Below, piece after piece: positions 610-3,956 of a stretch of DNA of 64,000 nt (positions within the stretch are counted from its first letter, which is position 1; each line of letters begins with the position of its first letter). Position numbers and translations under genes: made by a program. The stretch comes from Candidatus Neomarinimicrobiota bacterium (GTDB lineage: Bacteria; Fidelibacterota; UBA2242; B5-G15), in assembly GCA_017656425.1 (NCBI GenBank), contig JACDNV010000011.1:1-64000 (forward strand), in the 5' to 3' direction. Below the pieces are notes generated by a model. That model was not told the origin of the DNA, ran no database searches, and worked only from the letters and a program-made list of their open reading frames with translations.

Positions 610-825
610 TCACCCCATTAATACCTCTACAGGAATTCTTATATCCTCCCGGGTGGGATCGCTGATAAAATTCAATATCTCGAAACCTATCACCCTCCCA
701 TTTTTGTCTTTTACCAAAATCACTTCTGCTTCTGTTTCTTCTGAAAACATCTCTTTCTCAGGATCATCAAACCATACATTGAGAGTATTCCCTTTATGAT
801 CATAAAATATTCTTATTTTCTCCAT
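610..825 (-). CDS. DUF2283 family small protein
   Basis: A 71-residue protein with the DUF2283 pattern: paired N-terminal strands (residues 4-19, IRIFYDHKGNTLNVWF), an acidic middle, and the strand GRVIGFEILN (43-52). The family's molecular function is not established; its members often sit beside small RelE-, DUF4258- or nuclease-like genes in probable toxin-antitoxin pairs. Here the start codon overlaps the 3' end of a broken nuclease-like gene (813-1180), which fits translational coupling with that partner. Because the partner is damaged, this may be an orphan partner, possibly antitoxin-like. The upstream GGGGAGG on the coding strand is a good ribosome-binding site. Confidence 0.85.
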   Translation of the reverse strand: MEKIRIFYDHKGNTLNVWFDDPEKEMFSEETEAEVILVKDKNGRVIGFEILNFISDPTREDIRIPVEVLMG

Positions 826-1180
826 AACTCCTCCCCAACTTTTATTTTATTAGTCAAATACGTTGTTATCACAAATCCTGTCGAATTTTCTATTTTCACC
901 ACAACGCATAAAAAATGTTTTACCAACCTTTTATAATAAAGTTGCACTGATTTGTCCCATTTACTTAGTCGCACCATATCCGGGTCCTTTCCTTTAAAGT
1001 ATCTTTTATCTCTTGAAAATAATCGGCCATCACTGGATGTTTTTCGCTAATTATTCTATTCCATTGATTACTATCCAGTCTTACAGCCTTGTTCAGAGGG
1101 GTTTTTACTCTAAAAACTAACAAATAATCAATCCCGTTTTTATACTCTACATTTACAATTAGTGCTACTGGCGGGATTAC
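813..1180 (-). pseudogene. Broken nuclease-like (PBECR-type) gene, frameshifted and 5'-truncated
   Basis: Two minus-strand frames together make one protein. The first runs from 1180 with NGIDYLLVFRVKTPLNKAVR and QWNRIISEKHPVMADYFQEI, then stops. The second continues as GKDPDMVRLSKWDKSVQLYY, LVKHFLCVVVKIE and GFVITTYLTNKIKVGEELW, ending at 813 inside the next gene's start. This arrangement resembles small predicted nucleases that pair with DUF2283 proteins. The frame change falls at 992-998, which reads T TTA AAG in the first frame, a canonical -1 slippery heptamer. No ATG/GTG/TTG lies near the expected start: the 5' end abuts spacer repeat at 1181. Decay is the simplest reading; recoding is possible. 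Confidence 0.7.
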
Positions 1181-2810: not shown

Positions 2811-2910
2811 AGTTCGACGTTAGAAAAGTTCAACGTTCAACGTTATGAAGTTCAATGTTACTACCTGCGCAAATTTAGAACGTAAAACCCCGAACCTTGA
2901 ACCCAGATCC
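2811..2910. repeat. Inverted-arm composite spacer repeat, copy 4
   Basis: The left arm has GTTCGACGTT and tandem GTTCAACGTT words, ending with GTTCAATGTT at 2850-2859. The core is 2860-2889. A short right arm with CCTTGAAC follows. It lies immediately upstream of the ATPase gene as transcribed. Confidence 0.75.
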
Positions 2911-3179
2911 TTGTTTGCAATAACCCCCGCGTGTCATTGCGAGGAGTCCCATTGGGACGACGAAGCAATCTACTTCAAAAGAAGCCTGGCACTCAAAACA
3001 TACCATAACCACCTCAACCAGGAGAGATTGCCACGCTTCGCTCACGCTCGCTCGCAATGACAGGATGGGATGATTTCTCTTTCATTCATCACCTATCAAA
3101 ATCTCAACACAAAATTTAACAGACCCAGGAGATCGAGGTTAAAAGAGTTCAACGTTCGACGTTTGAGAGTTCAATGTTA
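2850..3179. repeat. 330-bp duplicated block, copy B
   Basis: Same length and order as 137-466, with scattered substitutions (for example TGCGCAAA for TGCACAAA, and GCAATGACA for GCAACGACA). After it, copy B continues as GTTCAATGTTAGATAG rather than into a core, so the right junction differs from copy A. Confidence 0.85.
2932..3062. repeat. 131-bp MITE-like palindromic element, copy B
   Basis: Second copy of the element at 219-349. Its ends TGTCATTGCGAG and CTCGCAATGACA form a perfect 12-bp inverted pair, whereas copy A has one mismatch. It sits inside the larger 330-bp duplication. Confidence 0.78.
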
Positions 3180-3270
3180 GATAGTTCGACGTTAGAAAAG
3201 TTCAACGTTCAACGTTATGAAGTTCAATGTTACTACCTGCACAAATTTAAAACCTTGAACCTTGAACTCA
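3147..3270. repeat. Inverted-arm composite spacer repeat, copy 5 (shortened core)
   Basis: The left arm has several GTTCAACGTT / GTTCGACGTT words ending at 3231. The core from 3232 lacks the GAACGT segment (ACAAATTTAAAACC). The right arm is TTGAACCTTGAAC. From 3270 to 3304 a G/C-richer stretch (AGCTGTGGCGT...) leads into the DUF2283 stop. Confidence 0.7.
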
Positions 3271-3304: not shown

Positions 3305-3532
3305 TTAAGCAGCTTTTTGAGTTATTAATTCTTTTTCAAATTCAACTGAATAAGATAGTACCGTCTTTAAATCCATTCTTTTCGAAGCGTTGAGAATTTC
3401 AATACCTACAATTCTATTGTCAGAGGTTGTATCTATATTGATACCCTCATCAATTTCTATAACCCCTTCTGGAGTTTCATCACTCAGCTTCAGATACAAT
3501 GCATCTACTTCATCATCGTAGTATACTTTCAT
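3305..3532 (-). CDS. DUF2283 family small protein, partner of DUF4258 gene
   Basis: A 75-residue DUF2283 protein: MKVYYDDEVDALYLKL at the N-terminus and the conserved strand NRIVGIEILNAS (39-50). Its ATG overlaps the stop of the upstream DUF4258 gene by 4 bp (ATGA), so the two are translationally coupled. DUF2283/DUF4258 pairs are widespread and proposed as toxin-antitoxin modules; by analogy this would be the antitoxin-like partner. It is more distant from the protein at 610-825 than a recent duplicate would be, so the two modules arrived separately or diverged long ago. Confidence 0.87.
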   Translation of the reverse strand: MKVYYDDEVDALYLKLSDETPEGVIEIDEGINIDTTSDNRIVGIEILNASKRMDLKTVLSYSVEFEKELITQKAA

Positions 3533-3756
3533 TTCTTTCTCCCTTTCTTTACAGGATAACTTGTTATTACAGTTACTATATCATCTTCCACAGAAACGAC
3601 AATTTTCAATGGATATTTGAACCCTCGAACATATTCCACAATCTCTTGATTGCCCTGAATCAATTTCTTTTTCTCGAGAATTTCTTTGATTGTTCTTTCT
3701 GAAATCTTATACAATTTCCCCCTTCTCTTCGCATGACGAGAAAATTTAATCTTCAC
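3529..3756 (-). CDS. DUF4258 domain protein (probable toxin-like partner)
   Basis: A 75-residue, strongly basic protein with the DUF4258 layout: SRHAKRR (6-12), a central helix (ISERTIKEILEKKKLI) and the paired strands PLKIVVSVEDDIVTVITSYP (49-68). The family is RelE-like in size and context and is predicted to act on RNA, but no activity is established for this protein. It is the first gene of a two-gene unit with the DUF2283 gene (4-bp overlap). A spacer core lies about 95 bp upstream (3850-3879). Confidence 0.83.
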   Translation of the reverse strand: MKIKFSRHAKRRGKLYKISERTIKEILEKKKLIQGNQEIVEYVRGFKYPLKIVVSVEDDIVTVITSYPVKKGRKK

Positions 3757-3799
3757 AAAGTACTATATCCCTCTTACTTTCTGTTCAACACTACTTTCA

Positions 3800-3956
3800 G
3801 AGTTCGATGTTTTAAAAGTTCAACGTTCAACGTTATGAAGTTCAATGTTACTACCTGCGCAAACTTAGAACGTAAAACATCAAACCTTTACTTTGAACTT
3901 CGGAACTTTGATCTTGGACCTTGAACTTTAAACTTTGTAACTTTGAACTCCGAGCT
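3800..3956. repeat. Inverted-arm composite spacer repeat, copy 6
   Basis: The left arm has GTTCGATGTT, tandem GTTCAACGTT and GTTCAATGTT (3840-3849). The core is 3850-3879. The right arm (3880-3956) is a degenerate TTTGAAC / CTTGAAC array. It is upstream of the DUF4258/DUF2283 pair and downstream of the broken hicA. Confidence 0.75.

Follow-up and report, generated by a model that had tools for sequence, protein, structure and literature searches.

A toxin-like gene beside an intact DUF2283 gene has very probably lost its frame through a small tandem duplication, next to a slippery heptamer most likely present by chance

Introduction

Does a canonical −1 slippery heptamer, placed exactly where a toxin-like gene changes frame, point to programmed frameshifting, or does it lie beside an ordinary mutation? 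The locus that raises this question is found 1 kb from one end of contig C11, within the first 64 kb of that contig (the whole stretch of 64,000 nucleotides that was analyzed, hereafter the window), in a 2.8-Mb genome that is 99.66% complete. An earlier note had placed TTTAAAG at 992–998 of the minus strand, and we confirm that this is a canonical heptamer, positioned in phase for a −1 slip at the meeting point of the 2 frames. The same note called this coincidence striking for a possible toxin, and favored decay. The features of the locus are as follows:

965–1123, minus strand: N-terminal half of the toxin-like gene (frame a), with a TTG start; 52 aa, the last 8 residues out-of-frame
813–992, minus strand: C-terminal half of the toxin-like gene (frame b, −1 relative to frame a), without an inner stop
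992–998, minus strand: heptamer TTTAAAG, of the form X XXY YYZ, in phase with frame a
985–995, minus strand: period-5 direct repeat AAAGGAAAGGA at the break, within a stretch of 11 nt here vs 6 nt in relatives
813–977, minus strand: possible separate open reading frame from ATG 977, overlapping the frame-a stop by 13 nt, with an AAAGGA-type Shine-Dalgarno upstream
610–825, minus strand: intact DUF2283 gene, the presumed antitoxin partner, overlapping the toxin stop by 13 nt as in most relatives

Results

Both halves belong to a family found beside DUF2283

Read on the minus strand, frame a runs open from 1180 through TTG 1123 to its stop codon at 967–965 (...DTLK ERTRIWCD), and frame b runs open from 1046 to its stop codon at 815–813 (GKDPDMVRLS...LWRK). 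They meet at TTTAAAG, the sole X XXY YYZ heptamer within their 82-nt overlap. Both halves are homologous to an intact family and align with it end to end, the N-terminal half matching positions 1–46 of the family profile at 34.7 bits and the C-terminal half positions 41–99 at 49.8 bits. The gene downstream of the window copy matches PF10049 (DUF2283) at 37.2 bits (cut-off 23); a DUF2283 gene follows in 83 of 85 relatives, with the 13-nt overlap in 75.

The family is well represented in cyanobacteria, Chloroflexota, and other phyla. Within the window's own phylum, the N-terminal half alone found 2 weak relatives and the C-terminal half alone found 1 strong relative (G002) plus weak ones. The −1 read-through product used as a query retrieved 6 plasmid records, in Synechocystis, Chondrocystis, and Leptospira, and 3 of these together with the read-through formed the search alignment. 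With this alignment as query, 228 relatives were retrieved from genome_contigs, and in the window's phylum 4 of 245 genomes gave matches, the window's own among them; the weak phylum matches L005 and L008–L019 were set aside from the analysis. Of the 228, we retained the best 80, the ranking being by likeness to an intact protein, a choice that favors intact copies and disfavors split ones; 76 were taken as intact, and 4 (L047, L054, L062, and L068) carry insertions or inner stops. A tblastn search of phages with the C-terminal half gave no match, none of 44 stretches from viral contigs (alignment A1) and none of 69 stretches found in genome_contigs with the N-terminal half was confirmed, and the same genome yielded no convincing paralogue.

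The toxin-like gene probably retains its 5′ end, which the earlier note had taken to be missing, because the product of TTG 1123 (MLVFRVKTPLN) aligns with the annotated start of P0001 from the Synechocystis plasmid pSyn7338-2, and also with VNKFEILTPLN, i.e. at the starts of relatives. TTG 1123 is a poor ribosome site, with no convincing Shine-Dalgarno ahead of it. Upstream of it, at 1124–1180 of the minus strand, frame a has 19 further open codons (VIPPVALIVNVEYKNGIDY) without a usual start codon; their translation looks protein-like, and no relative of it was found.

A probable BECR-type toxin

The family is unnamed and lies near Pfam DUF4258 and PBECR2. The read-through product scores 18.1 with PBECR2 (below the cut-off of 27.1), P0001 and P0002 score up to 22.1 with DUF4258 (below the cut-off of 25), and DUF4258 matches at E < 0.01 in 5 of 32 relatives. 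In PMC11980606, DUF4258 is listed as a BECR-fold toxin family with target unknown. For the 32 relatives, NCBIfam and PADLOC each gave 1 stray weak match; PHROGs gave nothing convincing, and the best solved structure by sequence had E 0.89.

A model of the Chloroflexota member L079, from 32 relatives, has a mean pLDDT of 92.7. By VIA-align it resembles 7m5f (a contact-dependent inhibition system; Z 6.9), 7vd7 (a toxin-antitoxin complex; Z 6.5), BrnT (3u97; Z 6.3), and RelE (2kc8; Z 5.0), values below 8 that may reflect only a common arrangement, and Foldseek gave no match in the PDB with E < 0.001. The gene probably encoded a protein of about 100 aa with a RelE/BrnT-like (BECR) nuclease fold, and we infer that this protein was probably an RNase toxin of the BECR type, with DUF2283 as its partner. 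In the literature searched, DUF2283 was named in no paper found, and nothing on point emerged on programmed frameshifts or toxin inactivation in toxin-antitoxin pairs.

The break carries 5 extra nucleotides within a five-base repeat

The break maps between helix 44–52 and strand 56–59 of the L079 model (L51 and P54). In the alignment, the gap between 2 conserved residues, Leu and Pro, is exactly 2 residues in all 81 uninterrupted relatives, i.e. 76 from genome_contigs (among the best 80 of 228), L022–L024 from plasmids, L107, and L109. The 6 broken relatives left out of this count (L047, L054, L062, L068, L025, and L004) also have 2 residues there by eye. The window gene has 11 nt between this Leu and Pro vs 6 nt in relatives. 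A −1 slip would therefore place 4 residues (KGKD) in the gap, 2 more than in any relative counted, and the fusion does not join the 2 halves as family members read, as had been proposed.

A perfect 5+5 repeat lies at the break and can be found in 2 registers. In the window's long open reading frames, 91 of 54,845 positions mark the start of a repeat of this kind, so that one falling exactly at the break is unlikely by chance. Among the best 80 of 228 relatives, all with DNA, only 1 has a 5+5 repeat near the equivalent place, and its gene is unbroken. Eleven nucleotides within a period-5 repeat are what a 5-nt tandem duplication leaves, and on the sequence such an event accounts for length, frame, and repeat together. 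The earlier preference for decay is thus borne out by the uninterrupted relatives, the repeat, and the excess length: in all likelihood the gene is an ordinary toxin pseudogene whose frame was lost by a small tandem duplication, with the heptamer nearby by chance.

An assembly or sequencing error, with the gene intact in the cell, would leave the same picture. We consider it unlikely. The locus is known from a single genome, near a contig end, with a single disruption in a gene that is otherwise well conserved, all of which would suit an error; against this, short-read errors do not typically take the form of a five-base repeat lacking a homopolymer, and a second toxin nearby is also frame-broken.

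Frame breaks elsewhere in the family and region

That second toxin is a hicA gene, and the pair is arranged as follows:

about 4242–4020, minus strand: HicA, frameshifted, both pieces matching PF07927 (E 3e-7 and 2.2e-7)
4451–4239: HicB, intact, beside HicA

The broken HicA lies 3.2 kb from the broken toxin-like gene, and its 82-nt frame overlap contains no X XXY YYZ heptamer. With 2 toxins broken and both antitoxins intact within 4 kb, the region is consistent with ordinary toxin decay.

Breaks also occur in relatives, at other places. G002 (L004), the strongest phylum relative retrieved with the window's own pieces, is open at the site of the window's break and switches frame at profile positions 55–61, compared with 41–46 in the window. 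In the phylum of L026, a cyanobacterium, 45 of 386 genomes match (64 rows), a survey that covers 1 phylum and is less biased toward intact copies than the best 80 of 228. From these rows, 16 stretches with partial matches or stops were taken: L144 (G250) has a clean frame switch at profile positions 62–72, L145 and L146 each match in 2 partial pieces, and each of the remaining 13 gives one match, either partial or nearly complete. None of the 16 shows a clean frame switch at positions 41–46. In L145 (G420), profile pieces 1–25 and 39–93 match overlapping DNA in different frames, and the partial matches of L145 and L146 are overlapping or shortened.

A second DUF2283 gene and an uninterrupted DUF4258-like gene lie at 3305–3532 and 3529–3756 of the minus strand, which places 2 related toxin-DUF2283 pairs within about 3 kb. 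The broken toxin locus, together with a large open reading frame at 1517–2833, lies between the 2 copies of a 300-nt direct repeat (111–410 and 2824–3123; 95% identical), and 21 matches to a 132-nt core of this repeat occur in the genome. Between the genes there are also 6 diverged copies of a 138-nt element in which GTTCAACGTT and GAACTTTGAAC units abound:

45–182, 364–501, 1196–1333, 2758–2895, 3130–3267, and 3748–3885: copies of the 138-nt element

The heptamer and the internal start codon

The duplication could also have created something functional: a Shine-Dalgarno before ATG 977, and with it a translationally coupled two-peptide toxin, with or without −1 slippage to the full-length protein. 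To this combination we assign a slim chance; if true, a frame-broken toxin would be kept as a dampened or split toxin beside an intact antitoxin. Its 2 components can also be considered separately, and each then appears very improbable.

As for slippage, programmed −1 frameshifting at TTTAAAG would yield a small, regulated amount of full-length toxin, and the heptamer is indeed canonical, in phase, and at the junction, with a frame-b side that is open and ends in the conserved overlap with DUF2283. However, among 18,299 codon positions in 52 open reading frames of at least 150 aa in the window (35% GC), 182 carry an in-frame X XXY YYZ heptamer, TTTAAAN in 43 cases, and the heptamer alone is not above chance, because at least 1 is expected in the 27 codons (82 nt) of frame overlap with P ~0.24. 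Relatives keep a single uninterrupted frame without this heptamer, the outcome that the earlier note had itself named as speaking against the idea: none of the best 80 of 228 relatives, all with DNA, has TTTAAAG at the corresponding site, and 4 of them have some in-frame heptamer nearby. A stimulatory stem-loop downstream, another of the suggested signs, was not seen either, all 5 stretches downstream of or around the heptamer being predicted weaker than their shuffles (z +1.08 to +1.33, in a model that excludes pseudoknots). Nor does the product have the length of any relative counted. With a chance probability of this size, a place that is not conserved, and extra length and a repeat that fit duplication, the coincidence loses its force as a sign of programmed frameshifting. 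Most likely, the heptamer beside the break arose by chance from Leu-Lys codons, the genome being AT-rich.

As for the internal start, ribosomes could terminate in frame a at 965 and reinitiate at ATG 977, the 2 fragments then reassembling. The reading frame from this ATG shares 13 nt with the end of frame a, AAAGGAAAGGA precedes the ATG at good spacing, and the cut falls in a loop of the modeled fold. Such an arrangement is seen in no relative, though, overlapping starts of this kind easily arise by chance, and joint folding of the fragments is conjectural; we doubt it strongly.

A frame-transition survey (PMC3711429) requires at least 5 genes and a conserved site for a programmed frameshift, and treats singletons as likely indels or sequencing errors; by those rules, the window break is a singleton indel. 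The least probable alternative is phase variation through gain or loss of the 5-nt unit. Phase-variable tracts are usually longer than the 2 units present here, and 79 of 80 relatives (best 80 of 228) lack such a repeat at this place. In its favor stand the frame-changing direct repeat within the coding sequence and the published classification that takes tandem repeats near a break as the sign of phase variation (PMC3711429, Table 1).

Discussion

We propose that the ancestral locus would have been a toxin-antitoxin pair in which a toxin-like gene of about 100 aa overlapped DUF2283, the intact second gene, which probably encoded the antitoxin. A period-5 tandem duplication, most simply through strand slippage during replication, would then have shifted the frame in the loop that connects the second long helix to the following strand, so that the predicted protein ends after 52 aa; both the direction of this change, i.e. 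a gain in the window copy, and the ensuing loss of function are presumed. The C-terminal half is free of stops and retains most of the conserved residues, which suggests that the break is recent, or that some product is still made.

A break of this kind is of little consequence in itself: slippery-looking heptamers are common in AT-rich genes, and members of this DUF2283-adjacent toxin-like family, which is widespread, are often broken. Its use lies in a caution: the length of the junction in relatives tells a small duplication from a programmed slip even with a canonical heptamer at the break.

Compared with known systems, the window gene resembles the unnamed family beside DUF2283 (e.g. P0001 and L079) in that its halves align end to end with the family and overlap the downstream gene by the same 13 nt, and differs from it in being split between 2 frames, with 11 nt vs 6 at the break. 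To BrnT, RelE, and contact-dependent inhibition toxins, the L079 model shows middling structural similarity (Z 5.0–6.9), which below Z 8 may reflect only a common arrangement, and it has no Foldseek match under E 0.001. Finally, bacterial genes with programmed −1 frameshifts include dnaX and IS3-type transposases. The window gene is like these in having an in-phase X XXY YYZ heptamer where its frames meet, and unlike them in that the heptamer is not conserved, has no predicted downstream structure, and would give a product that is not collinear with relatives.
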